A stretch of 64,000 nt of DNA. It comes from Actinomycetota bacterium (GTDB lineage: Bacteria; Actinomycetota; Acidimicrobiia; Acidimicrobiales; Ilumatobacteraceae). Shown here one piece after another: positions 844 through 50,678 of this stretch. The notes under the pieces were generated by a model. It was given only the letters and a program-made list of their open reading frames with translations. It was not told the origin of the DNA and did no database searches. Location: NCBI GenBank assembly GCA_016870865.1, contig VGAC01000001.1, positions 1 to 64,000 on the forward strand, given 5' to 3'. How positions within the stretch are numbered: position 1 is the first letter of the stretch; each line of letters starts with the position of its first letter. The position numbers were made by a program, and so were the translations under genes.

Positions 844-901
844 TCACAAAACAAACAACCCATCAACCAACAAACAACAAAGAAAGAGGCAAACACCACA
901 G

Positions 902-3079
902 ATGATGACCACACTCTCCGCTCCCCTGCCCACCACCGGCACAAGTCTTCGTGCAGGTGACACCGAACTTCCTCTCGAGTCAGTTCGCATCGATGCCGTC
1001 GTCGACGGTGTCGGTGTCGTGTGGACCGTCGTCCAGACTTTCGTCAACACGCTCGAGGAGGCAATGGAAGCCGTCTACACGTTCCCGCTGCCGAATTCCG
1101 GCGCGGTGAACCGTGCGACGATGCACATCGGCGGAAGGGCGATCGAGGCGGAGATCAAAGAGCGCGAGGCCGCACAAGCCGAATACGAAGAGGCGCTGGC
1201 CAAGGGCCACACCGCAATGCTGCTCGAACAGCACGCCGGAGAAATCTTCGAAACGGCGGTCGGCAACATCCATCCGGGCGAGGCCATCAGCATCGAGATC
1301 GTCGTTCATGCGACCGTTGTCCGCGACGGCAACGAAGTCACGGTGCGCTTCCCCACCCTCGTGAAAGAGCGCTACGTCCCCGAAGGCACGCCGAACGCAG
1401 AGGCGCTCACTCCACCTCGACATGCGGGCGACGTCCACGTCAACTCCACGGTCAGCATCACCTTCACCGAGGCGGTCGACGAGCTTGTCTGCACAACCGT
1501 CGAAGGTGCATCGGTGACCCCGTCGCAGGTCACCATTGGCGACTTCTCCCTCGACCGCGACATCGTGTTGAAGTGGAATGCCGCCAATGAGGTGATGGAC
1601 GCCAAGTGGACGGCCGACTCTGACAACCCCACACTCGGCACGCTCGAAGTCGTCGTTCGGACCGTGGCGATACCGACCACCAAGACCAAGACTCGTCGCG
1701 CTGTCTCCGTTCTCGTCGACCGCTCGGGAAGCATGGACGGCTGGAACATGGATGCTGCGATTCGCATCGCGAACGACGTCATCGGCACACTGACGCGCGA
1801 TGACCTCGTGCATGTTCTCACCTTCGACTCCGACACCGAGGTTCTCGACGCAACGGCTCACGGCTTCGTTCCGGCAACCGCAGAATGTCGCAACCACCTG
1901 CGTCGTGAGATCGCGTCGATCTACGCGCGTGGCGGAACCGAACTCGACGGCGCGATCGAGGTCGCCGGAGCCGCCCTCGCCCAACTCGATGACGGTGAAG
2001 ATGCGCACGAATTCGAGCGGGTCGTGCTGCTCATCACCGACGGCGCATACGGTGACGAGGCCACAGCGGCCCGTCAACGCGACGTGCAACTGCGCAACGC
2101 GCGCGTCATCGTCGTCGGCATCGGCCAGGAACTCAACGGCTACCTCGAGACCCTTGCCGCGAACGGGTGGTTCGTCGGAGTCGAGGCCGCCCATGTCGTC
2201 GGGGACGTCGCGAAGAAGGTCTGCGAGCGCATCGCCCAGCCCGCTTACCGCAATGCACGCATTGACATGCCGGGCTTGACCGATCAGGCCCCTCACCTCA
2301 CACCCGACATCTACGCGAACGCCACCGTCACGCTGTGGGCACGCGCGCCGCGACCGGCGTCCGGTGCCGTCGTACATATCGAGACCGATGCGGGCACTCT
2401 TGCAGTCGTCGTGGTTCGCGCCTGCGAAGACGCCTCTGCGACCACACGTTGGGCCAAGGCGCGCATCAACGCCCTCGACTACGACGTGATGACCGACCGC
2501 ATCGACGAATCAGCGGGTCGTACGGCAATCATCGAACTGTCCGTTCGTCACCGTGTTCTGTCGAAGTACACCGCTTGGTTGGCAGTCGATCGCTCCCGCT
2601 CGACCGACACGATCATTCCGACCCGTGTCGTTCAACCAGTCGCCACCGATGCGCATCGCTTCGCGCCGTCCCCCTTGCGGTCGGTGGCATTCCTCTGCCT
2701 TGATTCGAGTACGCCACGCATGAGTGAAGATGATCGGGTTCTCGCGCAGCGCACGTTGGCGAGGTTGAGGTCGCCGTCACGCCCACGGGTTGTCTCTGCG
2801 CCGCCCATCACAAACCCGATCGACGACCTTGTCGCACTACTCACGACATTGAAGGGACTGCTCGAAGTCCCGGAACTCGACATTGACGCAGTGGCCGAGG
2901 CGGTCGTTGCGGTCGCCGAGTGGCTCATCGACAACGAGCCGCAGGACATCGGACGCCGCTTACACCGCAAGTTGCTCACGCGTGCCAAGAAACTGAGGGC
3001 AAATCCGTTCCCGCAGCGCCATGTCGCTCGGCGAATCGTGGACGAGTTGATCGCTGCGGCAGACAACTCGGTGCACTGA
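902..3079 (+). CDS. VIT and von Willebrand A domain protein
   Basis: The 725-residue protein has an N-terminal VIT (vault/inter-alpha-trypsin) domain at about residues 1-140, including PLPNSGAVNRATMHIGGR and the conserved EYEEALAKGHTAMLLEQ helix. A vWA domain follows at about 265-450, with a complete metal-ion-dependent adhesion site DRSGSM near residue 272. The C-terminal 250 residues are an uncharacterised helical region. No signal peptide or membrane segment is seen, so it is probably cytoplasmic. ATG 902 was chosen because AAAGAGG-like purines lie about 12 bases upstream and the VIT domain starts at once; a longer open frame upstream lies over the regulator gene. Bacterial VIT-vWA proteins have no agreed function. 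Confidence 0.85.
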   Translation: MMTTLSAPLPTTGTSLRAGDTELPLESVRIDAVVDGVGVVWTVVQTFVNTLEEAMEAVYTFPLPNSGAVNRATMHIGGRAIEAEIKEREAAQAEYEEALAKGHTAMLLEQHAGEIFETAVGNIHPGEAISIEIVVHATVVRDGNEVTVRFPTLVKERYVPEGTPNAEALTPPRHAGDVHVNSTVSITFTEAVDELVCTTVEGASVTPSQVTIGDFSLDRDIVLKWNAANEVMDAKWTADSDNPTLGTLEVVVRTVAIPTTKTKTRRAVSVLVDRSGSMDGWNMDAAIRIANDVIGTLTRDDLVHVLTFDSDTEVLDATAHGFVPATAECRNHLRREIASIYARGGTELDGAIEVAGAALAQLDDGEDAHEFERVVLLITDGAYGDEATAARQRDVQLRNARVIVVGIGQELNGYLETLAANGWFVGVEAAHVVGDVAKKVCERIAQPAYRNARIDMPGLTDQAPHLTPDIYANATVTLWARAPRPASGAVVHIETDAGTLAVVVVRACEDASATTRWAKARINALDYDVMTDRIDESAGRTAIIELSVRHRVLSKYTAWLAVDRSRSTDTIIPTRVVQPVATDAHRFAPSPLRSVAFLCLDSSTPRMSEDDRVLAQRTLARLRSPSRPRVVSAPPITNPIDDLVALLTTLKGLLEVPELDIDAVAEAVVAVAEWLIDNEPQDIGRRLHRKLLTRAKKLRANPFPQRHVARRIVDELIAAADNSVH

Positions 3080-27036: not shown

Positions 27037-29406
27037 TCAACTCACCTTCACGCGAATCTTTTTCGTTCCTTGTCCACGCGGGATGCTGCAAAGGAGTCTG
27101 CGTGCATTGCCGTCAGCGGGGAGACATTGATTGCCGCCCGACGGGGAGAGCAGATCCGGTGCGGTGTGGCCGTCAACGAGCGAGATCACGCCCGAAGAGC
27201 CCTGTCCATCGAGAATGACCGTGTCTTTCGTCTGTTCACCCGAGCAGGAACCATTCGCAGCAAGACCCGACGACGGGACCGTTGCGCATGTTCCACCGAC
27301 GCCCGTGATACCCACAGCAGCGGTCGATGATGCGTCGACACTGATGTCAAGTGTCGTTGCCGACTTGCCTGAGTTATTGTTGCTCCCCGATGAGCCGCTG
27401 TTGCCTGAGTTATTGCCGCTCGAACTGTTGCCCGACGAGCTGTTGTTGGAACCACCAATCGTCCCGTTCCAAGTCGACGGGTAAATCCTGAACTGCAGAA
27501 CCGAACGGTTGTACCCGTTCGTTGAGGGCGAGCCAACCCCGGTCAACGTTGCTTCAATCCAGTTGTCACTATTCGACACGAAGTCGCTCCACTTCAGGTT
27601 CAGCACTTCGCCAACCGTCTTTCCTACAAGGTCGGGACGCTGCTGCTTGAAGTGCGCCGGCTTGTGATTCGTCAGACAATCCTTCAGATTGATTTCAAGG
27701 TCGAGAACGTTGTCCGCATCGCTGTCGGCAGTTTCGTCCTTCAACGCCCAGAAGTCGGAAGCCGGGTCTTCCGTCGGATCACCGTACGACTTGGTCGACG
27801 TCTTCAAAGTCGTGCTCTTGTAGTAACTGTCGACCTCGGCACCCGCGCACCCCACCTCGACGTTCGATTGAATTTGTTGGCCGTTGATACGTCCGCTTGT
27901 AACAACGATTCCGTAGTTCAGCCCGTGCTGTGACTTGAACGCCTCGAACCCGGCAGGTCCGGTCTCGCCCTCCAGCACCATGCGCTGTGGACGCCAGAAC
28001 TCGATTCCGAGCTTGCCGTCCGCACCAATCTTCATGTGACCATTTGCGAAGTTTGCATTGTCCTTGTCGACCTTGACGCCGTCAGCAGTTGCCGACTTTA
28101 GGTAGGGCGTCGTGACGAAGAAGGGACTGACGGTGACGGGAATTGCAACATCGTTGGTTCCCACGACTGAATGGAGGATCATGACGTCATTGGCGCGAAC
28201 AACCTGCGCGACGTCCTTTTCCCTGTAGTTCGGCGTCAAGAAAGCGGCCCAGCGCACTTGATTGTTCTGCGTGAACTTGTAGAGCCCATTCGTCTTGTAG
28301 GTCTCGCTTGCCTTGATCGCCGTTTTTGAGAACTCGGTGCTGGCAAAAGACTTCCAATCCTTCGGCGTTTGCCAGTAGGCCGATGCGCCCGAAATCTCGT
28401 TCATCTCGGAGTTGCCGTTGATCAAGGCAGTCCCTGTTCCCGAAGCGGCATCACACCACTTGATGCCCGGGCATTCCATGTAGACGGCATCGGGTGCGGC
28501 TCCGGCAGCGGCAATCAACGACCAGTCGCCGAGGAACACAGCGAGGTCGAAGGAACCTCCGCCTGCATCCTTCCCGCTGAGCAGACTTGCGATATTCGTC
28601 GTCAATTGGTCGATTGTTACGCCGGGCGCGTTGATGTTCAACTTCGAATCCATTGATGCACGCATGCCGCTGTACGTCGCGATGCTCGCCGTGAAGTTTG
28701 TCTTGTCGCTCCGGTTGTTCGTCGACTGGTCGAGAATGTCCAGCGAACCGTTGCCGTTGTCATCGACGTCGATGGCATTCGGCACGCTGTCGCAATCGAG
28801 GTCTTGGCCCCCGTCGGTTCCATTCAGGTCGACGTCCTTTGGACTGCCGTCGGGGCACGTCGTTGCGGCGAGTTTTCGCAGCGTCGACATCGTGGCGACT
28901 TTCGCGGTCACCAACTTCACGCGACCCGCGAGACCAGCACCCTTTGGCTTACCCGACTTGTCACGAGCACGCACACCGGCAGTGCCTGCCGCTGCCGGTT
29001 TGGCCGCCTTGTACCAGCCATCCATGTTTCGCAGTGCTCCGACGTTCAACGTGCCGCTCTTCACCGCTTTCAAACCGATGATCGATTTGTAAACGGGCTT
29101 GCCCTTCTCCACGCTCTTCACCACGCGATAGACGGCGGTGCCGAGGTACTTGCTCGTCGAGTTGGTGAATTGCAACGTTGCGTTCTTGATGACGGTGGCC
29201 GGCACCCCTGTGATCGCGAAGTTGCCCGACGCATCGACGTTCGCACGGTAGGCGCGACCCTTCTTCGTCATGAGGAATGCCTTGGCGGCTCCGGGCGCGG
29301 TGCCCTTCACGGTGATGCCTGCCTTCTTGGCCTCGACGATCGACGTCGGCACGGCGATACCGGCAACAGCGATCACTCCTGCGAGAGCGACGGAACGGAT
29401 CTTCAT
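27037..29406 (-). CDS. Large secreted protein, calcium-binding-like repeats
   Basis: The 789-residue protein is of unknown function. A signal peptide (about 1-26, ending SIVEA) leads into a beta-sandwich-like region (about 27-160) resembling carboxypeptidase-regulatory folds. An Asp/Asn-rich segment near 190-215 (DLNGTDGGQDLDCDS, DVDDNGNGSLDILD) and a shorter one near 560 (DSDADNVLDLEIN) look like thrombospondin-3 or EF-hand-like calcium sites. The central domain (about 215-640) matches nothing I know. A Ser/Asn/Gly linker (about 652-680) precedes a roughly 100-residue C-terminal domain with paired cysteines. There is no LPxTG motif or membrane anchor. ATG 29406 has GGGAGG upstream. The DNA looks less GC-rich than its neighbours. 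Confidence 0.85.
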   Translation of the reverse strand: MKIRSVALAGVIAVAGIAVPTSIVEAKKAGITVKGTAPGAAKAFLMTKKGRAYRANVDASGNFAITGVPATVIKNATLQFTNSTSKYLGTAVYRVVKSVEKGKPVYKSIIGLKAVKSGTLNVGALRNMDGWYKAAKPAAAGTAGVRARDKSGKPKGAGLAGRVKLVTAKVATMSTLRKLAATTCPDGSPKDVDLNGTDGGQDLDCDSVPNAIDVDDNGNGSLDILDQSTNNRSDKTNFTASIATYSGMRASMDSKLNINAPGVTIDQLTTNIASLLSGKDAGGGSFDLAVFLGDWSLIAAAGAAPDAVYMECPGIKWCDAASGTGTALINGNSEMNEISGASAYWQTPKDWKSFASTEFSKTAIKASETYKTNGLYKFTQNNQVRWAAFLTPNYREKDVAQVVRANDVMILHSVVGTNDVAIPVTVSPFFVTTPYLKSATADGVKVDKDNANFANGHMKIGADGKLGIEFWRPQRMVLEGETGPAGFEAFKSQHGLNYGIVVTSGRINGQQIQSNVEVGCAGAEVDSYYKSTTLKTSTKSYGDPTEDPASDFWALKDETADSDADNVLDLEINLKDCLTNHKPAHFKQQRPDLVGKTVGEVLNLKWSDFVSNSDNWIEATLTGVGSPSTNGYNRSVLQFRIYPSTWNGTIGGSNNSSSGNSSSGNNSGNSGSSGSNNNSGKSATTLDISVDASSTAAVGITGVGGTCATVPSSGLAANGSCSGEQTKDTVILDGQGSSGVISLVDGHTAPDLLSPSGGNQCLPADGNARRLLCSIPRGQGTKKIRVKVS

Positions 29407-29426
29407 TGGGCTTGCCTCCCTCATCC

Positions 29427-29490
29427 CGCCGCATCTTCGGCAGCTGCGGCGAACTACCGATACAGTAACCCGACTCCTATTCCCATTCAA
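29427..29490 (-). promoter_or_regulatory. Possible promoter and leader hairpin
   Basis: On the minus strand TTGAAT (29490-29485) and TACTGT (29467-29462) are 17 bases apart, a weak sigma-70-like promoter overlapping the end of guaA. The transcript would have a leader of about 50 bases containing a hairpin, CGCCGCA (29427-29433) with TGCGGCG (29445-29451). The hairpin could instead help end guaA transcription, though no U-tract follows. Confidence 0.3.
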
Positions 29491-31024
29491 TCGTGCCTGG
29501 GGGCTTGGAGGTGATGTCGTAAGCAATGCGGTTGACTCCGCGAACCTCGTTGACGATGCGGTTCGAGATCCGCTCGAGCAGGTCGTACGGCAACCGCGCC
29601 CAGTCAGCCGTCATCGCATCGTCACTGGTGACGGCCCGGATGATGATCGGGTGGCCGTAGGTGCGCTCGTCGCCCATCACCCCGACCGACCTGATGTCGG
29701 CCAGAACGGCGAAGGCCTGCCAGATCTCGCGCTCCAGACCCGCGGCACGGATTTCTTCACGCACGATGGCATCGGCTTCCTGCAGAGTGGCAACCCGCTC
29801 GGGGGTCACCTCGCCGATGATCCGCACCCCAAGACCCGGCCCCGGGAAGGGTTGGCGCCACACCATTTCGTCGGGCAGGCCGAGTTCGGTGCCGAGGCGA
29901 CGCACCTCGTCCTTGAAGAGCGACCGCAGTGGTTCGACGAGCCCGAGGGTCATGTCCTCGGGCAATCCCCCGACGTTGTGGTGGCTTTTGATGACGGCGG
30001 CCGTGCCGTCGCTGCCACCGCTTTCGATGACGTCGGGATACAGAGTGCCCTGCACCAGGAACTCGGCGTCGGTGACACCGCCGGTGTTCTCCTCGAAGAT
30101 CCGCACGAACAGTTCGCCGATCGCCTTGCGCTTCGCTTCGGGTTCGCTGACGCCCCGCAGCTTCTCGAAGAACCGTGCACCCGCGTCGACATGAATCAGC
30201 TCGATACCCATGTTGCGACGGAACATCTCGACGACCTGGTCGCTCTCACCTTTGCGCATGAGACCGGTGTCGACGTACACACACGTGAGCTGCGATGGGA
30301 TTGCGCGGTGCACCAGGGCGGCAGCAACAGACGAGTCGACGCCACCCGACAGACCACAGATTGCACGCTTGTTCCCCACTTGTGCGCGGATCGCCTGGAC
30401 CTGGGTGTCGATGATCGACTCCATCGTCCACGACGGCGAACAACCAGCCAGTTCGATGAGAAAACACCGGAGAATTTCCTGGCCGTTCTCGCTGTGCACG
30501 ACCTCGGGGTGAAACTGCACGGCCCACACTTTGCGCGCCGCGTTCTCCATGACGGCAATGGGCGCGTCGGGTGTTGATGCACACCCGGTGAATCCGTCGG
30601 GCATGCGCGAGACATGGTCGAAGTGGCTCATCCACACGGGAAACGTCGCCGCCATGCCGTCGAGCAACCGAGACGGTGAACTTCCGCGCGTGAGCGTTGC
30701 TCGTCCGTATTCACCACGGCCACCACGCGCGACCTCACCACCTAGCTGACGGGCAATCAATTGATGGCCGTAACAGATGCCGAGAATCGGGGTGCCAAGG
30801 TCGTAGATGGCAGGGTCGAGTGTCGGTGCGCCGTCGACGTTCACGCTCTTCGGGCCTCCCGAGAGGATGATCGCTCGCGGCGCCTTCGCGCTCACCTCGG
30901 CCGCGGTGATGCGATGCGGAACGATCTCCGAGTACACGTTTGCCTCGCGCACGCGGCGGGCAATCAACTGCGCGTACTGTGCGCCGAAGTCGACGACGAG
31001 AACCGTGTCCGACGAACGTGACAT
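29477..31024 (-). CDS. guaA: GMP synthase (glutamine-hydrolysing)
   Basis: The 515-residue enzyme converts XMP to GMP. The N-terminal class I glutamine amidotransferase has the nucleophile C84 in [16 protein letters not shown] and the His-Glu pair in [13 protein letters not shown]. The ATP-pyrophosphatase domain carries the P-loop [12 protein letters not shown] (near 224). The C-terminal dimerisation domain includes [12 protein letters not shown] and ends [12 protein letters not shown], which is the family C-terminus. ATG 31024 starts [17 protein letters not shown]. It is divergent from the small membrane-protein gene at 31082. Confidence 0.97.
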
Positions 31025-31411: not shown

Positions 31412-31540
31412 CACCCCTTGCGGGGTTTGGGTGCAAGTCCCAACCGGCGGTGACAGTCCGCGAACCCTTCCGCTCACGCGGTTGGGCCGACCTGGTGAAA
31501 TCCCGGGACCGACGGTGAGAGTCCGGATGGGAGCAAGGTG
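31412..31540 (+). promoter_or_regulatory. FMN riboswitch (RFN element)
   Basis: The conserved RFN core is clear: GTGCAAGTCCCAACCGGCGG, then GTGACAGTCCGCGA, GGGCCGACCTGGTGAAATCC, GGGACCGACGG and AGAGTCCGGATGGGAG. The P1 stem pairs CACCCCTTGC (31412-31421) with GCAAGGTG (31533-31540). The ribD ribosome site GGAGG (31540-31544) starts at the foot of P1 and the ATG follows at 31546. FMN binding would therefore most likely block translation initiation directly. It controls the ribD-ribBA-ribH operon. Confidence 0.95.
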
Positions 31541-31545
31541 GAGGC

Positions 31546-32577
31546 ATGACCGTTTACTCGGGCACGTTTGACGTGCGCGACGAACAACTCATGCGCCGCG
31601 CCGTGAGCGCGGCGCTCCAGGCGCGTCTCGTGGCGCGCCCCAATCCCTGGGTGGGTGCGGTTGTCGTTGCTCTCGACGGTTCCACCTACGAAGGCTGCAC
31701 CGCGGCCCCGGGCGGACCGCACGCCGAGGTTTCCGCACTGCGCCGCGCCGGCGATGCTGCGCGCGGCGCGACTCTTTACACCACTCTCGAGCCGTGCTCG
31801 CACAGCGGGCGCACCGGCCCGTGCACGCAGGCGATCATCGACGCCGGTGTGGCCCGCGTGGTCGTGGGTGTCGTCGACCCCGACACGAAGGTCGCGGGGC
31901 GAGGCGTCGAACAGTTGCGCTCTGCCGGTATCACCGTGGACGTCGGGGCATGTGCCCCGTTGGTACGGTCGCAGCTTGCGGCGTATCTGCACCACCGCAC
32001 CACGGGCCGACCCTGGGTGGTGCTCAAAATGGCGAGCACGCTCGACGGTCGCACCGCCGCCACCGATGGTTCGAGTCGCTGGATCACGGGTGACGTTGCA
32101 CGTCAACGCGCCCACGAATTGCGCGCCGAAAGCGACGCGGTTCTCGTCGGTGCCCGAACCGTGCGGACCGACGACCCGGCGCTGACGGTGCGGAATGCCC
32201 AGGGACCCTCGCCCCGGCGCATCGTTCTTGGTTCGGCGCCAGCGGGCGCCAGGGTGCATCCCTGCACCGAATGGTCGGGTGAACTCGAAGCGTTGCTTGA
32301 TTCCCTCGGCGGGGAGAACGTGTTGCAGCTGTTGGTCGAAGGTGGTGCGCACGTTGCGGCTGACTTTCATCGGCGGGGCCTCGTCAACCGCTACGTAATC
32401 CACCTTGCACCTGCCATCGCAGGAGGCGACGACGCACCGGGGGTGTTCGGCGGTGCCGCAGCCGCGAACATCGCCGACATGTGGCGTGGACGTGTCGTTT
32501 CACTTCAACAACTCGGCGACGACGTCGAAGTCGTCGTCGAGCCCCTGACAATCGCAGCAGGACAGGACACCAAATGA
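31546..32577 (+). CDS. ribD: Riboflavin deaminase/reductase
   Basis: The 343-residue bifunctional enzyme carries out the second and third steps of riboflavin synthesis. The N-terminal deaminase has the zinc site HAEVSALRRAG and PCSHSGRTGPC. The C-terminal reductase includes GRPWVVLKMASTLDGRTA and LQLLVEGGAHVAADFHRRGL. The start lies two bases after the GGAGG ribosome site controlled by the FMN riboswitch. Its stop overlaps the ribBA start by three bases (ATGA), indicating coupling. Confidence 0.95.
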   Translation: MTVYSGTFDVRDEQLMRRAVSAALQARLVARPNPWVGAVVVALDGSTYEGCTAAPGGPHAEVSALRRAGDAARGATLYTTLEPCSHSGRTGPCTQAIIDAGVARVVVGVVDPDTKVAGRGVEQLRSAGITVDVGACAPLVRSQLAAYLHHRTTGRPWVVLKMASTLDGRTAATDGSSRWITGDVARQRAHELRAESDAVLVGARTVRTDDPALTVRNAQGPSPRRIVLGSAPAGARVHPCTEWSGELEALLDSLGGENVLQLLVEGGAHVAADFHRRGLVNRYVIHLAPAIAGGDDAPGVFGGAAAANIADMWRGRVVSLQQLGDDVEVVVEPLTIAAGQDTK

Positions 32578-33800
32578 GCCCGACCGACAATGGTTTTGCG
32601 CCGATACCCGACATTCTCGCCGCCGTTGCACGCGGCGAGATAGTGGTGTTGGTCGACGACGAAGACCGCGAGAACGAGGGCGATTTCATCATGGCCGCCC
32701 AGTTCGCCACCGCTGAGAAGCTCGCCTTCATCGTCCGCCACAGTTCGGGCGTCGTGTGTGCACCCCTGACCGGCGAACGATGCGACGACCTGCGCCTGCC
32801 CGCGATGGTCGACCAGAACACCGAAAGCCACCGCACCGCCTTCACCGTGTCGGTCGACCTGATCGCCGGCACGACAACGGGCATTTCGGCGGCCGACCGT
32901 GCCGCCACGATCGCGGCCCTCGCCGACCCGAACGTCGCCCACATCGCCTTTGCGCGCCCGGGTCACATCTTCCCTCTGCGGGCCCGCGAGGGTGGCGTGC
33001 TCAAGCGTGCCGGCCACACCGAGGCCGCCGTCGATCTTGCGCGGCTTGCCGGCTGCTCCCCCGCGGGTTTGATCTGCGAAATCCAGAATGACGACGGCAC
33101 GATGTCGCGTCTCGACGACCTGCGGAAATTCTGCGCCGAACACGGTCTCTTGCTGTCGTCGATCGCGATGCTGATCGAGTACCGCCGACGCAATGAGCGT
33201 CTCGTCGAGTACATCGGCGCCGCTCCGGTACCAACCGAGTGGGGCACGTTCACCTGCCACGCGTACCGCAGCACGATCGACGGCATCGAACACCTTGCCT
33301 TCACGCAGGGCGACATCGCCGCCGACGGTGCGGTGCTCACCCGGGTGCACAGCGAATGCCTGACCGGTGACGTGTTCGGCAGTCGACGCTGCGACTGCGG
33401 GCCGCAGCTCGCCGCGGCCATGGGACTCGTCGCCGCCGAGGGTCGCGGCGTCGTCGTGTACCTGCGCGGCCACGAGGGTCGTGGAATCGGGATCGGCCAC
33501 AAGATCCGCGCATACTCGTTGCAGGACGAAGGACTCGACACCATCGATGCCAATCTGCAACTGGGTCTCCCCGTCGACAGCCGAGAGTACGGAATCGGTG
33601 CACAAATCCTCGCCGATCTCGGAGCACAGGAACTACGCCTGATGACGAACAATCCGGCCAAGTACGGCGGCCTCGGTGGATACGGACTCTCTGTGGTCGA
33701 GCGCGTCGCGATCGAAATTCCACCGACGCCTGAAAACGAGAAGTACCTGCGCGCGAAAAAGGAACGCCTCGGTCACCTGATCGAGCTGGACGGGAAGTAG
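32574..33800 (+). CDS. ribBA: DHBP synthase/GTP cyclohydrolase II
   Basis: The 408-residue fusion protein supplies both precursors of riboflavin. The N-terminal 3,4-dihydroxy-2-butanone-4-phosphate synthase has the acidic metal loop DDEDRENEGDFIMAAQ and RAGHTEAAVDLARLAG. The C-terminal GTP cyclohydrolase II has the zinc cysteines in HSECLTGDVFGSRRCDCGPQ and the catalytic RGHEGRGIGIGHKIRAY. ATG 32574 overlaps the ribD stop. RibE, which in many actinobacteria lies between ribD and ribBA, is absent here. Confidence 0.96.
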   Translation: MSPTDNGFAPIPDILAAVARGEIVVLVDDEDRENEGDFIMAAQFATAEKLAFIVRHSSGVVCAPLTGERCDDLRLPAMVDQNTESHRTAFTVSVDLIAGTTTGISAADRAATIAALADPNVAHIAFARPGHIFPLRAREGGVLKRAGHTEAAVDLARLAGCSPAGLICEIQNDDGTMSRLDDLRKFCAEHGLLLSSIAMLIEYRRRNERLVEYIGAAPVPTEWGTFTCHAYRSTIDGIEHLAFTQGDIAADGAVLTRVHSECLTGDVFGSRRCDCGPQLAAAMGLVAAEGRGVVVYLRGHEGRGIGIGHKIRAYSLQDEGLDTIDANLQLGLPVDSREYGIGAQILADLGAQELRLMTNNPAKYGGLGGYGLSVVERVAIEIPPTPENEKYLRAKKERLGHLIELDGK

Positions 33801-42684: not shown

Positions 42685-43821
42685 CTACACGCTAGGGCTG
42701 TAGAGCCTCGGCACGCGTCGACCGATTCCACAGGTGATTTCGTAGCCGATCGTGTCGAGGGCCCGCGCCCAGTCCTCGGACCTGATGCGCTCGCTGCCCT
42801 GCGTTCCAAAGAGCACGGCTTCATCACCCACTTCGACTTCGTCGTCACCGCAGTCGACCATCAGCTGGTCCATCGTCACCACCCCGATGATCGGCCGCCG
42901 CTTTCCCCCGACGAGTACCTCGCCGCCCTGCGACCAGAGCCGTCGTGGCACGCCATCGGCGTACCCAATCGGAAGCGTTGCGACAGTGGTGGGTGCAGAC
43001 GTGACGAATCGGTGACCGTACGAGACGCCTTCACCGGCGGCGAGACGTTGGATACGTGACACGCGTGCGTGCAACGACATCACCTGCCGTAGGTCGCCAC
43101 AGTGGTCGATGACGCCTTCCCCCGGGACGACGCCGTACGTTGCGATGCCGACGCGGACCAGATCGCGTCGCTCGGTCGGTATCGACATCGCACCGGCCGA
43201 ATTGACGGCGTGTATCGCAACCGATGCGTCGACCGGACCGAGCGCGTCGAGCACGGCCGCAAAACGCTGCGATTGGACCGCATTGGCGGGATGCCCGGGG
43301 GTGTCGGCGGCCGCGAAGTGGGTGTAGATGCCCGCAAGTCGCAGCGCATCGGCGTTGGCACCGATCGTTGCAACGAGTGCGGGGACATCGGCGGGATCGG
43401 CCCCGACGCGGTGCATGCCGGTATCGACCTTGACGTGGACGTCGACACGCACGCCACCCCTGCGACGTGCGGCCGAAGCCAGAGCCTCGACGTATTGCTT
43501 TCGGTAGACGGTCGCGGTCAGGCGATGATGCACGATGTCGTCGACTTCGCCGATGGGCTGTTCGGAGAAGATGAGGATCGGTGCGTCGATTCCCGCGTCG
43601 CGCAGTTCGACTCCCTCGGCGGTGATCGCGACGCACAAACCGCCGACACCCGCCGACACCGCCGCCCGCGACACGGGAACCGCGCCGTGCCCGTATGCGT
43701 CGGCCTTGACCACCACCCACACTCCCGACGGGGCGACCATGCGCTTGAGCACAGTGATGTTGTGTACATATGCATCAAGGTCGACCCTCGCCCAGGCCCA
43801 CCGCGTCGTGTTGTCAGCCAT
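42685..43821 (-). CDS. alr: Alanine racemase
   Basis: The 378-residue PLP enzyme makes D-alanine for peptidoglycan. The PLP lysine lies in WVVVKADAYGHGAVPV, the catalytic tyrosine is in VSYGHRF (about residue 268), and the PLP phosphate region is RVGIATYGVVPG with TMDQLMVDCGDDE after it. It starts inside the end of nnr (8-base overlap), so the two are coupled. The order nnr-alr-tsaE is shared with mycobacteria. Confidence 0.95.
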   Translation of the reverse strand: MADNTTRWAWARVDLDAYVHNITVLKRMVAPSGVWVVVKADAYGHGAVPVSRAAVSAGVGGLCVAITAEGVELRDAGIDAPILIFSEQPIGEVDDIVHHRLTATVYRKQYVEALASAARRRGGVRVDVHVKVDTGMHRVGADPADVPALVATIGANADALRLAGIYTHFAAADTPGHPANAVQSQRFAAVLDALGPVDASVAIHAVNSAGAMSIPTERRDLVRVGIATYGVVPGEGVIDHCGDLRQVMSLHARVSRIQRLAAGEGVSYGHRFVTSAPTTVATLPIGYADGVPRRLWSQGGEVLVGGKRRPIIGVVTMDQLMVDCGDDEVEVGDEAVLFGTQGSERIRSEDWARALDTIGYEITCGIGRRVPRLYSPSV

Positions 43822-45190
43822 GCTGATTCAACCCCGCAATGAGATCGCTGGCGACCACTCCGTCTTGGGGCAGGTCGCGCAACGTCGATGCGTGCACGAA
43901 TGCTCCTGCTGCAGCCGCGTGCAACGGCGTTGCTCCGCGCGCCAGATGCGCTGCGACGATACCCGTGAGCACGTCACCCGACCCGGCGGTGGCGAGGCGT
44001 TCGTCTCCCGATTCGACGAGCAGTGCGTCACCCGACGGATCGGCGATGACCGTCGTCGGACCCTTCAACAGCACGACCGCACCGATCTCTGCGGCCGCCG
44101 CGCGGGTGGCCGCAATGCGGTCAGCACCGGGAGGACCACCGACGAGGGAACTGAACTCCCCCTCATGTGGCGTGAGAATCGTTGCGGCGCATCGCCGGGC
44201 GATGACTTGGGCGGCGAGGCCATGTCGGCCGTCACGTGAAGCACCGAGAAGTTGCAGGCCGTCACCATCGATGACGAGCGGACACGGACAGCCCACCACG
44301 AAGTCGATGAAGTCATCGACGAGTTCGTCGCCACGACCGATCCCGGGCCCGATGAAAGCCGCGGCGAATCGGTCGATGTCGCCGAGTGCGGCGCGTAGCC
44401 CTCCCTCACCGTGCAGCGGACGATGAACGACCTCGGTCGGTGCGTCGATGTCGCCCGCGATACCGACACACGACAAATGTACGATCCCGGCTCCGGCGCG
44501 GTAGGCCGCCGCACACGCGAGCCGTGCAGCGCCCAGCATGCCGCGGCTTCCCGCGATGGCGCGCACACCCATGTTCCATTTGTGAGCCGATGGCGCGCGG
44601 CGTGGAACCCATGCGGCAACGTCGTTGGAGTCGACAACTGCAAGCAGGCGAGAATCAATGTCAGCCGCGTGGTGCGTGGCGAGACCGATGTCGACGACCG
44701 ACACCTCCCCGGCGATGCTGCGACCCGGCTCGAGAACGAGGCCGGGCTTGAGTGCACCGAATGTGATGGTCGCCGTGGCCCGCGGGGGCGAACCGTGCGC
44801 GACGCCTGTGAGTGCGTCGACCCCGCTCGGGATGTCGACGGCGAGTATCGGCGCGCGTGTCGTTGGTGCGAAGTATTCACCCCGGAAGCCAGTGCCGTAG
44901 GCGGCGTCGATGACAAGGTCGCACTCGGAGAGCAACATCGGGGCCCGCTCGGCATCAAAGACGACGGCGCGCGCACCGCGTTCCTCGAGGTGTCGGGCGG
45001 CAATGCGACCGTCGGCACCGTTGTTGCCTTTGCCGGCCACGACGACGACACGGCGACCATAGGTTCCACCCATCAATAGCCGCGCGGCATGGGCGACGGC
45101 GTGACCCGCCCGCTCGACGAGCACGTCGAACGACGCGCCGCTGTTCTTGTCGACATGGCGCATCTGCTCGGGCGTGAGTACCGACTGCAC
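43814..45190 (-). CDS. nnr: NAD(P)H-hydrate epimerase/dehydratase
   Basis: The 458-residue bifunctional repair enzyme has an N-terminal YjeF epimerase domain (about 1-200: VLVERAGHAVAHAA, VVVVAGKGNNGADGRIAARHL, AVDIPSGVDALTG). The C-terminal ADP-dependent dehydratase domain has AHKWNMGVRAIAGSRGMLGA, TILTPHEGEFSSLVG and ERLATAGSGDVLTGIVAAHL. The GTG at 45190 (VQSVLTPEQMRH) matches the family start; the frame extends into acpS. It repairs hydrated NADH/NADPH. Confidence 0.93.
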   Translation of the reverse strand: MQSVLTPEQMRHVDKNSGASFDVLVERAGHAVAHAARLLMGGTYGRRVVVVAGKGNNGADGRIAARHLEERGARAVVFDAERAPMLLSECDLVIDAAYGTGFRGEYFAPTTRAPILAVDIPSGVDALTGVAHGSPPRATATITFGALKPGLVLEPGRSIAGEVSVVDIGLATHHAADIDSRLLAVVDSNDVAAWVPRRAPSAHKWNMGVRAIAGSRGMLGAARLACAAAYRAGAGIVHLSCVGIAGDIDAPTEVVHRPLHGEGGLRAALGDIDRFAAAFIGPGIGRGDELVDDFIDFVVGCPCPLVIDGDGLQLLGASRDGRHGLAAQVIARRCAATILTPHEGEFSSLVGGPPGADRIAATRAAAAEIGAVVLLKGPTTVIADPSGDALLVESGDERLATAGSGDVLTGIVAAHLARGATPLHAAAAGAFVHASTLRDLPQDGVVASDLIAGLNQHG

Positions 45191-45206
45191 GCAGACAGCG
45201 TACGGG

Positions 45207-45572
45207 TCAGAGTGCCGCGACGACCGCGATCGCAACCAATTCGGTGTGACTCAGCGACAGATACCAACCGTTCACACCACGGTCGGTGGCGAGTGCGGCC
45301 GCGCGGCCCGCAACGACGAGCTCGGGGGCCCCCGACCGCGCCTTGTGGACCCACACGTCGTGGAAGTCGAAGGCGCCGAGACCCACGCCGAGCGCCTTCA
45401 TCGCCGCTTCGCGCACGGCAAAGCGTGCGGCAAGGGTCGCGACATCGTTGCCCCGTTCCAGGGCAAGTGAGATCTCTTCGTCAGTGAACAACCGCTGTCT
45501 CATCGATGGCGTTCGCTGTAGAGCCGAACGGAATCGCACGACATCGACTATGTCGACACCGATTCCCTTCAT
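45207..45572 (-). CDS. acpS: Holo-[acyl-carrier-protein] synthase
   Basis: The 121-residue phosphopantetheinyl transferase has the magnesium site GVDIVDVVRFRSAL (Asp in DIVD) and RFAVREAAMKALG (Glu). WYLSLSHTELVAIAVV ends the domain. It transfers 4'-phosphopantetheine from CoA to acyl carrier protein. ATG 45572 overlaps the glmS stop (ATGA). It lies 16 bases before the nnr start. Confidence 0.94.
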   Translation of the reverse strand: MKGIGVDIVDVVRFRSALQRTPSMRQRLFTDEEISLALERGNDVATLAARFAVREAAMKALGVGLGAFDFHDVWVHKARSGAPELVVAGRAAALATDRGVNGWYLSLSHTELVAIAVVAAL

Positions 45573-48500
45573 CGCGTGCGCCAGCGCTCGGCCGCCTCGG
45601 AGATCGGTGCGATGAGCGCCTCGGCGACGCCGATCTGTGCCAGCAGGTCGTCGCGAAACTCGTTCTCGGTTTCCTTGACCCAGTCGACTAGTCGGTTGTA
45701 GCGATCGTCATAACCCTTGAGGACGCCCTTCATGCTCGTCGCGTCAAGCGTCGGATGGAAAGTGACGTGCAACAGTGTGATGCCCGTCGTTTCACCCGAC
45801 TTCACTTCGGGCACGAGGATGACGGTGCGACCGTCGAAACGGCCGCGCGTGACCAGCACTTCTTGGTCACGAGCAACTCGGTGTTTCGTTCCGACGAGCG
45901 TCGCAGTTCCGTCGACACGCGACTTCAAGTCTTTCGACAGACCGCCCCGCTCGATGATCGTGATCGTCGCGTCCTGCGATGACCCACCGTCGACCCGGTA
46001 GCGGGTGAATCCGTTGACTGCGGCAACCGCCGCATCGAGGTCGGCGAGAGTCCTGAGTGTTCGGTACGTGAGCCGGTCGCGCGAGGTACCCGACGACACC
46101 ACGGCCTGCACGAGTGCACGGTCCATCAGTCCCTCATCGCTGCGGGAAATACCGACCGTGACCGTCTTGGCTTGGTGACGGATCGCGTCGATGGGGCGTG
46201 TGAGTTCATCGATGGCACGGGTCAGGGCTTCGGTGAGGTCGCCGAGGAACACCGCGGGAGTGACGACTTTGCCCGTTTGGCGCTGGTACGAATCAAGCGG
46301 ATCACGCGAGGAGAGATCGGCGAGCACCGAACTGAGACGCACGGCAGTCGACGCCTCGAGTGTTCCGTCGTATCGACCCGTCAGGAGTGCGTCACGGAAC
46401 CGCGCCGTGGCGGGTGCGACCGCGTGGCTGACGGTCGACACCAACGTCGCCGCCTCGGCGTGCCTTGCCACGACGTCGCGAATCGTTTCTCGTGCCTCTC
46501 GCAGGGGTCGCGCCGTTGCGTCGATGGCAAGGGCAGCCTCGTACCCAAAGAGATGGCCGACCATCGCCGAGAGAACGAAGGCGACCGACTCGTCGACCTC
46601 GGGGACGGTGAGCACCGCACTGGCGGCATCGAAGCGCTGCTCGCCCTCGGTGGCAACGACGATGGGGGTCGCCTTGTGTGCGCGGTAGATGGCAATTTCC
46701 TTGGCGACGTCGGATGCGGTACCGCCCTCGAGGCCCGCGGCACAGACGAGAATCAGCGGCTCACACGACAGATCGATGTGCTTCTTGTCCTCGGTGATGT
46801 CGCAGGAGATCGACTTGTAGCACAGTTCCGACAACTTGATGCGAACTTCATGGGCGGCGACCGCGTTGCCTCCGTTGCCGACGACGGCCCAGTAGCGCTT
46901 GGCCGGAGCGTGGCGACGCGCGGCGTCGGCGATGGCTCCACGCTGGCCGATGACGGCCCTCATCGCATCGGGAACACGGCGCAGCGAGCCGAGCACCCTG
47001 CTGCGTAGTTGTGCGGAACCAAGGTTGGCCACTTCGCTGATCGCACACGACAGCAAGGCACCGGCCGCTACCTGCGCGTAGAACGCCTTCGTGCTCGCAA
47101 CGCTCATCTCGACGTCGCGACCGTCGGATGTGTAGAGAACGCCGTCGGAGCGCAGAACCAAATCACTGTTGCGACGATTGACGATTGCAATCACCCGCGC
47201 ACCACGACCACGCGCGAGATCGACCGTACGGTTCGTATCGGTGGTGGTTCCACTCTGACTGACGGCAATCACGAGCGTGTCGCTCATCTCGGGGCTGAGG
47301 CCGAATCCCGACAACTCGGTCGCCGTCTGCGCATCGACGTCGATGGCGTCGCCGGTGAGCGCGACGAGCAACGACACCATGCTGCTGCCGGCAACGGCGG
47401 CGGTGCCCTGGCCGATGATGCGAATACGCCTGATCCTGCCTTGGGCGAGTTCACGGCGCAGGAAGTCGGGAAGGACCTCCTCGTCGAGCTCGGCTACGAC
47501 GAGACCGTCGCGGTCGTGGATGCGACCACGGATGGTCTTGCGAAAACTTTCGGGTGCCTCGAGGATTTCCTTCAACAGGTAGTGCGGTGCATCGCCACGG
47601 TCGATGTCGCGCGTCGTGACACCCGCCGACGTGATGTCGGTATCACTCACGGGTGCGGCGGTACCGTCGTAGAGGAAACGCTTGATCCCGGCGAGTTGGC
47701 CTGCCGCAGACGAGCGGAGTTCGACGATCTCACCGCGTTCGCCGTCCATGCGCACGATTGCACCCGTCTCCTCGGCGGTTCCGTAGGGCTCGCTCGCCAC
47801 GATGAAGGAGTCCTCGGCAAGGCCGATGCACATGCCCTGACCACTACCCCGCAGGGCGAGCATCACTCGGTCGGGTTCGGCCACGGATACGGTCGCAATC
47901 GCAACCGATCCCTCGAACTGGGTGACGGTCGATACGAACGCATCTTTCAGGTCGACGCCGTCACCCAACCGGCGTGCGACGAGGCTGGGAATAACCTTTG
48001 CGTCGGTGGTGATCGGCTCGGCGACGCTGAGGCCATGTTCAACCTTCAGGTCGGCGTAGTTGTCGACATCACCGTTGAGGACTGCCAGGACGAGGGGCGA
48101 CGGACGATCCACCTCTTCACCCGTGACGGGGTGGGCGTTGGGTTCGGAGATGATGCCGACGCTCGCCCATCTGGTGTGGCCTATCAAGGTGACACGCGCG
48201 CCCGGTTGTGCGAGAACGTGGCGCAACACGTCGTCGTCGAGAACCTGTTTGCGAATCGCACGGGTGTTGTCACCGAGCTCGCCGATTTCGGCGGCTGCCT
48301 TGTAGACGAAAGTCCACACGTCGTCGGTGACCCGCAGCGAGCGGGAAACAAACAGCGGATCCTGGCAACGCTCGGCCCACGTGACACCGACGGGCAGGCG
48401 ATCCGTGGTCAACCCGTGTCCCCACACCACCACACCAATACCGGCCGAGTCGCGGCCGCGCACTTCCATGCGGTCGATTGCCGACAACGCCTGTTGAATC

Positions 48501-48940
48501 GCAAGGTAGCCGTCGAGTGCACCGGGAGTCGCGTGCAGTCCGGCCAGAGCTTCGATCTCGCGCGCCGTGCGCAGACGGTCGTTGCGCAGCGACCACAGGA
48601 CGTCCTTTGCTGCCGCGATGGATTCGGCCGAGGCCTCGATGGCATGCACATCGTCGGCTGCTTCGAGGTCGGACTCGATTGCAGCGAGAACCGGCAAGAT
48701 TGCCGCAACCGCTGTGTTGATGCCCGCAACAAGTTCACGGTTGCCGACGAGTGCCCGCACACCGGGCTCACCTTTCAGCAGGGTGTCGGCCGCAGCAAGA
48801 GCACGTGTGGCTTCGGCCACGCGCGATGCGTCACGTAGTTCGAGGAGACGACGACCGGTGTCGAGCGCGTCGAGTACCTCGTCTCGATCCGGTGCGGGGC
48901 GGTCGGCCTTGCGGCTGAGCACGCAGATGATGCCGCACAT
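45569..48940 (-). CDS. glmS: Giant GlmS-type transaminase (1123 residues)
   Basis: This homologue of glutamine-fructose-6-phosphate transaminase is almost twice the usual 610 residues. C2 is the amidotransferase nucleophile (MCGIICVLS). R257 (HTRWAS), an Asn-Gly (VLNGDVDN) and TTDAKVI lie in the glutaminase domain. AVSQSGTTTDTN (SQSG 561-564) and SVASTKAF mark SIS-1. K702, E705 and H721 in SIS-2 keep the spacing of E. coli K485, E488 and H504. HQAKTVTVG (K925) matches the C-tail with the Schiff-base lysine K603. Extra blocks lie at about 10-160, 170-245, between SIS-2 and the C-tail, and after 930. GlmM upstream supports an amino-sugar role. Two other frames are open in this GC-rich gene; this one holds the motifs. 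Confidence 0.85.
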   Translation of the reverse strand: MCGIICVLSRKADRPAPDRDEVLDALDTGRRLLELRDASRVAEATRALAAADTLLKGEPGVRALVGNRELVAGINTAVAAILPVLAAIESDLEAADDVHAIEASAESIAAAKDVLWSLRNDRLRTAREIEALAGLHATPGALDGYLAIQQALSAIDRMEVRGRDSAGIGVVVWGHGLTTDRLPVGVTWAERCQDPLFVSRSLRVTDDVWTFVYKAAAEIGELGDNTRAIRKQVLDDDVLRHVLAQPGARVTLIGHTRWASVGIISEPNAHPVTGEEVDRPSPLVLAVLNGDVDNYADLKVEHGLSVAEPITTDAKVIPSLVARRLGDGVDLKDAFVSTVTQFEGSVAIATVSVAEPDRVMLALRGSGQGMCIGLAEDSFIVASEPYGTAEETGAIVRMDGERGEIVELRSSAAGQLAGIKRFLYDGTAAPVSDTDITSAGVTTRDIDRGDAPHYLLKEILEAPESFRKTIRGRIHDRDGLVVAELDEEVLPDFLRRELAQGRIRRIRIIGQGTAAVAGSSMVSLLVALTGDAIDVDAQTATELSGFGLSPEMSDTLVIAVSQSGTTTDTNRTVDLARGRGARVIAIVNRRNSDLVLRSDGVLYTSDGRDVEMSVASTKAFYAQVAAGALLSCAISEVANLGSAQLRSRVLGSLRRVPDAMRAVIGQRGAIADAARRHAPAKRYWAVVGNGGNAVAAHEVRIKLSELCYKSISCDITEDKKHIDLSCEPLILVCAAGLEGGTASDVAKEIAIYRAHKATPIVVATEGEQRFDAASAVLTVPEVDESVAFVLSAMVGHLFGYEAALAIDATARPLREARETIRDVVARHAEAATLVSTVSHAVAPATARFRDALLTGRYDGTLEASTAVRLSSVLADLSSRDPLDSYQRQTGKVVTPAVFLGDLTEALTRAIDELTRPIDAIRHQAKTVTVGISRSDEGLMDRALVQAVVSSGTSRDRLTYRTLRTLADLDAAVAAVNGFTRYRVDGGSSQDATITIIERGGLSKDLKSRVDGTATLVGTKHRVARDQEVLVTRGRFDGRTVILVPEVKSGETTGITLLHVTFHPTLDATSMKGVLKGYDDRYNRLVDWVKETENEFRDDLLAQIGVAEALIAPISEAAERWRTR

Positions 48941-48949
48941 GGGGCGAGT

Positions 48950-50263
48950 TTACCCTTGTGCCGTGCGGGCCGCGTCGGCAATGCGCTCCGCGTGGCGCCG
49001 AGCAGTCGCCACGTCGTGTGCTTCGACCATCACGCGCACGAGAGGCTCGGTGCCGCTTGGACGCACGAGGACGCGACCCTCGTCACCAAGTTCTGCTTCC
49101 ACCTCACGCACCACGTCCCTGCAGGCCTCCACCACCGACGCGGCATCTCCGTTCACCTTCACGTTGACCAATACCTGCGGATAGGACGTCATCGCCGCTG
49201 CGGCCAGCTTTGCAAACGGCTCACCGCGCCGGCCGAGCATGTCGATGAGTTCGATTGCCGCAAGCAGACCATCACCCGTCGTTGCGCGTGAGCGGTGAAT
49301 GATGTGCCCGCTTTGTTCGCCACCGAGCACCGCACCGGTGCGGTCGAGCTCGACGAGAACCGACCTGTCACCTACCGCCGTGGTGTGCACGGTGACGCCT
49401 GCCGCCTCCATGGCCCTGTGAAAACCAATGTTGCTCATCACCGTCACGACCACGGCACCATTCGCCAGAAGACCACGCGACTTCAAGTCGAGGGCAGCCA
49501 GCGCGAGCAGGTGGTCACCGTCGACAACGCTGCCCTCGTTCGTTGCGGCGATCACTCGGTCGCCGTCGCCGTCGAATGCAATCGCAAGGTCGCATACGTG
49601 TCCACGTGCGACCGCTGCCAAATTCCCGGGGTGGGCGGCACCGCATGCCACGTTGATGTTGGTTCCGTCGGGTGACGCATTCACCACGTGTGCTTCGATA
49701 CCGAGCCTTGCAAAGACCTGTTGGCAAACGAAGCTCATCGCGCCGTTCGCACAATCAACGACGACGCGTGTGCCCGCGCGTACGGAGGTTCCTGCTGCAC
49801 AGACATGGTCCACATACGCGTCGAGGCCCGTTGAGCCGTCGGGCAGGGACGGCTCGACGTATCCCTCGTTCGTCTTGACGAGCCGTTCGTAAATCACCTG
49901 AATCGCTCTTTCTTCGTCGTCGCTGAGCTTCGATCCGCCGTCACGGAAGAACTTGAGTCCGTTGTCGGTGTACGAGTTGTGCGATGCCGTGACGACTGCG
50001 GCAGTGCACCCGTGGTGCTGGGCGAGAAAGGCAACGGCGGGAGTCGGTGCCATGCCGACGAAGTCGACGGCGACCCCCTCCGCACGGAAACCTTCGGCGA
50101 CGGCGTGTGCCAGTGCGGGGCTCGATTCACGCGGGTCGTGGCCGACGACGACCCGCGAGCAGCGCAACACCCGGGCGGCTGCGCGGGCATAGAACTGGAC
50201 GGCAGTTGGGGTGATCTCGCGGTGCGCAACACCACGAACACCGTCGGTGCCGAACTTCAACAA
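48950..50263 (-). CDS. glmM: Phosphoglucosamine mutase
   Basis: The 437-residue mutase converts glucosamine-6-phosphate to the 1-phosphate. The phosphoserine loop reads VTASHNSYTDNGLKFF, with Ser in place of the usual Pro after SHN. The metal loop is AFDGDGDRVIAA, the sugar loop is GEQSGHII, and the phosphate-binding RPSGTEPLVRVMVE completes the four domains. It starts at TTG (50263, or the next codon TTG at 50260), because LKFGTDGVRG matches the family start; no ATG or GTG fits. It follows rpsI and precedes glmS by 9 bases, giving the UDP-GlcNAc precursor path. Confidence 0.93.
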   Translation of the reverse strand: MLKFGTDGVRGVAHREITPTAVQFYARAAARVLRCSRVVVGHDPRESSPALAHAVAEGFRAEGVAVDFVGMAPTPAVAFLAQHHGCTAAVVTASHNSYTDNGLKFFRDGGSKLSDDEERAIQVIYERLVKTNEGYVEPSLPDGSTGLDAYVDHVCAAGTSVRAGTRVVVDCANGAMSFVCQQVFARLGIEAHVVNASPDGTNINVACGAAHPGNLAAVARGHVCDLAIAFDGDGDRVIAATNEGSVVDGDHLLALAALDLKSRGLLANGAVVVTVMSNIGFHRAMEAAGVTVHTTAVGDRSVLVELDRTGAVLGGEQSGHIIHRSRATTGDGLLAAIELIDMLGRRGEPFAKLAAAAMTSYPQVLVNVKVNGDAASVVEACRDVVREVEAELGDEGRVLVRPSGTEPLVRVMVEAHDVATARRHAERIADAARTAQG

Positions 50264-50282: not shown

Positions 50283-50678
50283 TCAACGCTTGGTGAACTG
50301 AGGTGCCTTGCGGGCCTTTTTCAGGCCGTACTTCTTGCTCTCCTTGCGACGCGAATCGCGGGTCAGCAGACCGGCCTTCTTCAACACGGGCCGCAGTTCA
50401 CCGTCGAGTTCCACGAGCGAGCGCGCAATCGCCATGCGCAGGGCACCGGCCTGGCCGTTCACTCCGCCACCATGGATCGACGCGTCGACGTCGTAGACGG
50501 TTTCGGTGCTGGTGACACGCAGAGCCTCGGCAACCACCATGCGCTGGGTCGCCATCGGAAAGTAGTCGTCGAAGGTGCGGCCGTTGACGGTGACGACACC
50601 GGTTCCCGAGCGCAATCGCGCACGCGCGACCGATTCCTTGCGGCGTCCGGTGGTTTGGGTGAGCGGCTGGCTTGCCAC
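50283..50678 (-). CDS. rpsI: 30S ribosomal protein S9
   Basis: The 131-residue protein begins at GTG 50678, with AAGGAG five bases upstream. GRRKESVARARLRSGTGVVT is the S9 core motif, and the basic C-terminus RKAPQFTKR ends in the Lys-Arg tail that reaches the P-site tRNA. The rplM-rpsI pair is standard. It is followed by glmM, as in mycobacteria. Confidence 0.97.
   Translation of the reverse strand: MASQPLTQTTGRRKESVARARLRSGTGVVTVNGRTFDDYFPMATQRMVVAEALRVTSTETVYDVDASIHGGGVNGQAGALRMAIARSLVELDGELRPVLKKAGLLTRDSRRKESKKYGLKKARKAPQFTKR

Follow-up and report, generated by a model that had tools for sequence, protein, structure and literature searches.

GlmS, the bacterial glucosamine-6-phosphate (GlcN6P) synthase, is a textbook channelling enzyme, whose free C-terminal tail shuts the sugar site and also makes up the channel for ammonia. 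Can a GlmS-like protein still be a GlcN6P synthase when its counterpart of this tail lies inside the chain? The question is raised by a single open reading frame (ORF) of 1123 amino acids (aa), with an ATG start, in the DNA of an actinomycetotal bacterium (Acidimicrobiia; Acidimicrobiales; Ilumatobacteraceae); the window, i.e. the whole stretch analysed, consists of 64,000 nucleotides (assembly GCA_016870865.1, contig VGAC01000001.1, positions 1 to 64,000). Here we report that the protein belongs to a separate giant GlmS-type lineage, which is homologous to GlmS, and that it is probably a GlcN6P synthase with an internal C-tail (probability about 0.8). We infer this activity because the catalytic residues are kept, the predicted fold is of the GlmS type, the gene is the sole copy in its genome, the giant and canonical forms exclude each other, and both use the same operon slot. 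If this reading is true, the giant GlmS would make the first amino sugar of the cell wall in many Acidimicrobiia.

Family assignment and core fold

A Pfam scan of the giant protein matched the first SIS domain only. In the NCBIfam scan, two GlmS models were best by far, with 253.8 and 236.5 bits against cut-offs of 381 and 418; the latter score belongs to TIGR01135 (231.5 bits in the genome search; curated equivalog cut-off 418.05 bits), and the best non-GlmS model reached 53.5 bits. Because the protein scores below both cut-offs, its genome seems to lack glmS by curated models, and other giant-bearing genomes look glmS-less in the same way. The genome (96% complete) encodes one GlmS-like protein and contains neither a second glmS nor any other SIS protein; the normal-length glmS that the initial annotation had named as possible counter-evidence is thus absent. 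We file the protein apart from plain TIGR01135 members because it falls below the equivalog cut-off and its catalytic lysine does not lie at the end of the chain, 193 aa following residue 930. No description of a giant GlmS was found in the open-licence literature.

An AlphaFold2 monomer model was built from 29 relatives (mean predicted local distance difference test, pLDDT, 83.4; predicted template modelling score, pTM, 0.71). It has the domain order of GlmS, with an N-terminal nucleophile (Ntn) glutaminase followed by two SIS domains, and superposes on nine or more structures of GlmS and its eukaryotic counterpart GFAT, which also make up all of the top 31 Foldseek rows. Residues 2 to 930 of the model match residues 1 to 608 of the E. 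coli GlmS chain (2j6h/1jxa; Z 37.5; 594–597 of 608 residues, for 2j6h 597 at 3.7 Å). The glutaminase domain gave a Z of 29.2 with 1xff_B, and isomerase-domain structures gave 36–38. Segments with a pLDDT below 50 were residues 161–163 (R-loop), 218–221, 259–267 (Q-loop), 612–615, 707–725 (His721 loop) and 916–936 (tail), and are mostly predicted mobile loops of the active sites.

Catalytic residues

The giant protein was aligned with E. coli GlmS (mature numbering), 12 canonical GlmS sequences from a wider circle of relatives, and 118 giant homologues. E. coli C1, R73, W74, S347, K485, E488, H504 and K603 correspond to C2, R257, W258, S561, K702, E705, H721 and K925. The residues listed in the initial annotation (C2, R257, SQSG 561–564, K702, E705, H721 and K925) are all present in the translated ORF, and the alignment bears out its equation of K702-E705-H721 with K485-E488-H504. 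In GlmS, the glutaminase uses Cys1 as its nucleophile, and the ketose-aldose step is carried out by Glu488, His504 and Lys603 (PMC9272926); in human GFAT-1, Cys2, Asn123, Gly124 and Thr679 act in glutamine hydrolysis (PMC7000685). In E. coli numbering, all 118 giants keep every GlmS active-site residue tested (Cys1, the oxyanion residues Asn98 and Gly99, Arg73, Trp74, Asp123, Glu488, His504 and Lys603), together with Arg26, Gly27, His86, Ser347, Gln348, Ser349, Thr352, Glu481, Lys485, Lys503, Ala602 and Thr606.

These residues bear on the substrate. The initial annotation had proposed an amidotransferase with extra modules and possibly an altered substrate; the GlmS-type amidotransferase with additional folded modules and a C-tail inside the chain stands, but an altered substrate is unsupported, because the phosphate-site residues for fructose 6-phosphate and the glutamine contacts are retained and the gene sits in the slot where canonical glmS would otherwise be. 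A GlmS relative with another amino-sugar product or acceptor, GlcN6P coming from a different source, would fit the low equivalog score and the uniform changes near sugar and channel (S303A, C300Q, H97L). We consider it very unlikely, since S347, Q348, S349 and T352 of the phosphate site and the catalytic E488, H504 and K603 are kept 118 times out of 118, S303A also occurs in 3 of the 12 canonical relatives, the giant gene replaces canonical glmS one for one beside glmM, and the genome holds no other SIS protein.

The internal C-tail and its gate

Relative to E. coli GlmS, the giant protein carries 125 + 9 extra residues after residue 6, 33 + 13 before Arg73/R257, 23 + 84 after residue 590 (between SIS-2 and the tail) and 193 past the last residue, and the spacing from R73/R257 to S347/S561 is 30 aa longer. 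The insert sizes given in the initial annotation agree with these values, as does its estimate of about 198 residues beyond K925; the alignment gives 198, and the range across the 118 members is 192–212.

Model residue 930 lies on GlmS residue 608, and therefore K925 falls on K603; a position far from K702, E705 and H721, which the initial annotation had named as a possible outcome against it, was not what the model showed. The predicted superposition, the position after SIS-2 and linker, and the motif A-K-T-x-T-V, kept in 118 of 118 giants, make K925 very probably the equivalent of K603. The initial annotation asked whether K702, E705, H721 and K925 converge in one pocket; a single chain cannot supply all four, because the sugar-site histidine of human GFAT-1 (His577*) comes from the neighbouring subunit (PMC7000685).

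Several columns that are invariant in canonical GlmS are changed in the giants: Y25V (117 of 118), Y28R (118), T76S (118), H97L (115), K487S (118), R539H (118), N600H (118), L601Q (117) and E608G (118), beside which C300Q and S303A occur in all 118. Y25V, Y28R, N600H, L601Q and C300Q belong to the gate formed by R-loop and C-loop and are changed together. In GFAT these loops touch each other (PMC7000685, PMC7948480); in GFAT-1 the tyrosines and arginine of the R-loop, together with the tryptophan of the Q-loop, hold the C-loop in place (PMC7000685), and the tryptophan of GFAT-2 contacts Tyr35, Arg33, Leu675 and Ala676 (PMC7948480), which by our reading correspond to Y28, R26, L601 and A602. 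The gate between tail and glutaminase loops thus appears to be rebuilt on both sides, with the catalytic residues untouched.

The added modules

Every block of the protein is under purifying selection (dN/dS ≤0.23), and because, in addition, hundreds of genomes share the architecture, it is not a product of chance or an artefact. In the N-terminal insert, helices are predicted at residues 19–133 (pLDDT mostly 90+); conservation is lower here than in any other block (mean majority frequency 0.48; glutaminase core 0.69; core range 0.69–0.75). The insert before R257 carries invariant K214, E218 and G220–N225. Pfam scans of the N- and C-terminal blocks in 29 members returned no convincing family, and searches of PDB sequences with the N-terminal, linker and C-terminal blocks no significant match. 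The suggestion that the extra blocks form separate domains is supported at the C-terminus, as residues 931–1123 are confidently predicted to fold alone (pLDDT 92.3, pTM 0.89).

The predicted fold of this C-terminal domain appears to be of the PAS type. One match stood out: the PAS segment in the N-terminal part of L-GDH180, a 180-kDa glutamate dehydrogenase from Mycobacterium smegmatis (7jsr), with a Foldseek E of 1.7e-3 and a VIA Z of 9.1 over 162 of 193 residues. The next match had a Z of 7.2 over 80 residues. A comparison of 118 giant tails with 40 L-GDH N-termini by hhalign was not significant (best P 0.12, with other windows of the same protein nearly as good), and we therefore claim a likeness of fold, not common descent. 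The domain is conserved nearly as well as the core (0.67), has invariant charged residues (R1008, K1019, D1036, R1038, E1045), and was seen in giant GlmS only, once per genome apart from one fragment (about 540 genomes).

These features suggest how the enzyme may work. Glutamine would be hydrolysed at Cys2 and the ammonia passed through an internal channel to a dimeric SIS site, where E705, K925 and H721 of the partner subunit would aminate and isomerise fructose 6-phosphate. The C-tail, free-ended in ordinary GlmS, would be held at both ends, between the helical linker and the PAS-type domain, and a second helical module would be inserted beside the Cys2 strand. The modules could then determine how ordered or how open the tail and the ammonia gate are, so that the protein itself would provide for allosteric control or assembly; we give this proposal close to, but somewhat below, even odds. 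A regulatory, scaffold or feedback role is plausible in view of the predicted PAS-type fold and the altered gate residues. If the modules do control the tail, the giants would have an allosteric control or assembly function that other bacterial GlmS lack.

The modules might instead serve oligomer assembly or the docking of partners such as GlmM or other cell-wall enzymes, with no sensing of metabolites. Helices are predicted for two of the three large inserts, the low conservation of the N-terminal insert is usual for spacer or packing modules, and glmM adjoins the giant gene in 88 of 102 loci tested. This adjacency is no argument for a special partner, however, because it is equally seen with canonical glmS (23 of 30 loci tested), and the putative PAS-type fold of the C-terminal domain, with its invariant charged residues, is more typical of a binding or signalling pocket. 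We therefore regard pure assembly or docking as rather unlikely.

Distribution and mutual exclusion

A GlmS-like match was present in all 41 close genomes searched. Most of the order have a full-length giant (48–91% identity); four families have a GlmS-like match of only about 27–33% identity, of normal length in the two that were read out (609 and 621 aa). When one genome per species was scanned, at least 547 coding stretches with relatives were obtained; the 80 loci retained include Ilumatobacter, Aquihabitans, Candidatus Microthrix, IMCC26207 and many Acidimicrobiia bins. The cultured Aquihabitans sp. G128 (NZ_CP077604.1) is among the carriers, and a few locus titles in the scan name other groups, which may be mislabelled bins. 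All 118 members, of 1114–1183 aa, keep the whole architecture.

Among 247 Acidimicrobiia genomes, the giant tail was found in 95 and a canonical glmS above the cut-off in 139; none had both and 13 had neither, some of the 13 holding fragments only. Three genomes (G182, G224, G253) from families that otherwise carry the giant have no tail match and no canonical glmS above the cut-off, probably owing to assembly gaps. Outside the class, six of seven giant carriers lack canonical glmS. The giant appears to be an ancient separate GlmS lineage that is found instead of canonical GlmS.

In one genome of the same order (G034, C1:1179749-1183184), two overlapping frames, of 812 and 431 aa, together make up the giant gene and meet at residue 725, just past the His721 loop; either the enzyme is naturally split there, or the break stems from a frameshift or a faulty assembly. 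A phage origin of the giant was considered and rejected, the best places listed covering at most 45% of the protein at 26–31% identity.

Replacement at one operon slot

In most loci examined, giant and canonical glmS occupy the same slot, rpsI-glmM-[glmS]-acpS-nnr-alr, so that the giant has the genomic position expected of the sole glmS in a glmM operon. In a tree of the GlmS core obtained by a quick method, giants from several classes form one clade, about 7.9 substitutions per site from canonical GlmS, and canonical Acidimicrobiia sequences group with E. coli; the exact placement of the giant clade is unsure because its branch is long. Recent insertions into the local canonical glmS could have produced the long form on the spot, which would explain the shared slot, but this origin is very unlikely, given the single distant clade, the grouping of canonical Acidimicrobiia GlmS with E. 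coli and the whole architecture kept throughout the giants.

A more careful tree of the neighbouring genes (rplM, rpsI and glmM, with rplM assigned by position and not by family scan) requires five changes between the giant and canonical labels, four of them forced by well-supported branches, and neither form was a single block in any of 200 bootstrap trees. The simplest reading is that one form took the place of the other here on several occasions, whether through differential loss or through recombination in the flanking genes, with gains and losses indistinguishable.

Several points weigh against an internally tailed GlcN6P synthase that excludes canonical GlmS. The protein is about 180 bits short of the TIGR01135 cut-off, and residues otherwise invariant in GlmS are replaced, His97 and Tyr28 among them. 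Model confidence is lowest in the tail and the His721 loop, and the nine-residue motif HQAKTVTVG, which the initial annotation had equated with NLAKSVTVE, has five identities, equalled in 353 of 2000 protein shuffles. The equation holds in the superposition, but the motif was rejected as stand-alone proof, and the equivalence is not certain because the tail is poorly resolved and such a match can arise by chance. Both forms were seen together in a single genome, which lies outside the class (G314; contigs C155 and C313); as its contamination is 5%, a foreign contig is possible. Finally, the genome studied has no GlmU above the cut-off (best 55.5 bits against 366.85; G000:C5:65297-66229), and GlmU of the giant-carrying clade may also be divergent. 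The best GlmU candidate is a frame of 467 aa matched by both halves of the glmU model.

Genomic context

The features of the locus are listed in Table 1; the cluster consists of ordinary cell-wall and housekeeping genes. Opposite the giant gene, an antisense open frame of 609 aa (47009-48838, +) was read as a G+C-rich shadow frame. An Rfam scan of the window found no glmS ribozyme or other element near the gene, a result that fits control at the protein level without proving it. Elsewhere, the scan returned an FMN riboswitch (31412-31542, +; 95.4 bits) directly upstream of a ribD-like gene (31546-32577) and ribBA (32481-33800). The window also contains an open frame of 829 aa without any Pfam match (27037-29526, -) and a protein of 803 aa with VIT and von Willebrand A domains (668-3079, +).

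Table 1. Position of the giant glmS-type gene, its protein regions and its neighbours in the window.
Feature	Position	Strand	Remarks
Giant glmS-type gene, 1123 aa	45569..48940	-	sole glmS-like gene and sole SIS-domain protein in genome
N-terminal insert, residues 8-146 region, ~134 extra aa, predicted helical bundle right after Cys2 strand	48503..48919	-	alignment and model
Insert region before R257, residues 179-237, ~46 extra aa	48230..48406	-	alignment
Glutaminase (Ntn) core, residues 147-442 (R257, W258, N289, G290, D313), plus C2 at 48935-48937	47615..48502	-	structure match and alignment
Two SIS domains (isomerase), residues 443-805 (SQSG 561-564, K702, E705, H721)	46526..47614	-	Pfam, structure match, alignment
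Linker insert between SIS-2 and tail, residues 806-916, predicted helical	46193..46525	-	model and alignment
Putative internal C-tail, residues 917-930, HQAKTVTVG with K925	46151..46192	-	superposition and alignment; low pLDDT in monomer model
C-terminal extension, residues 931-1123, predicted independently folding PAS-type domain and flanking helices	45572..46150	-	structure prediction, fold search
glmM, next pathway enzyme	48950..50263	-	conserved neighbour, 9 bp upstream
rpsI (ribosomal protein S9)	50283..50678	-	conserved upstream neighbour
acpS	45207..45572	-	conserved downstream neighbour, overlaps giant stop codon by four bases
nnr (NAD(P)H-hydrate epimerase/dehydratase)	43814..45235	-	conserved neighbour, beyond acpS
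alr (alanine racemase)	42685..43821	-	conserved neighbour, beyond nnr

Comparison with known systems

Tentatively, the giants may represent a second ancient type of GlcN6P synthase, in which a sensory PAS-type domain behind the tail governs the ammonia gate and which has repeatedly been swapped with GlmS in an essential operon. They would then offer a clean case of two very divergent, mutually exclusive isoforms that replace each other in situ at an essential locus. GFAT-1 is disturbed by N- or C-terminal tags (PMC7000685), whereas a tag at the C-terminus is tolerated by GFAT-2 (PMC7948480). With a tail that runs on covalently into a folded domain, this natural lineage allows the gating model to be tested directly.

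With bacterial GlmS (E. coli, 2j6h/1jxa; TIGR01135) the giant shares the Ntn glutaminase and double SIS isomerase, their order, the catalytic residues, the probable tail lysine and the adjacency of glmM. It differs in being about 1.85 times longer, with an internal C-tail, helical inserts and changed residues at the R-loop/C-loop gate, in scoring below the TIGR01135 cut-off and in forming a separate deep clade. The core fold and catalytic residues are also those of GFAT-1 and GFAT-2 (PDB 6r4e and relatives), which likewise have additions for regulation, namely a loop and inhibition by UDP-GlcNAc (PMC7000685, PMC7948480). GFAT, however, has about 680 aa, a terminal C-loop and short-loop insertions instead of folded modules, and no PAS-type domain. 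L-GDH180 (7jsr, PMC8175468) is an enzyme of nitrogen metabolism with a PAS-type domain and flanking helices, such as are predicted for the giant, but its catalytic domain is unrelated and its PAS domain lies in an N-terminal segment together with ACT-like domains.

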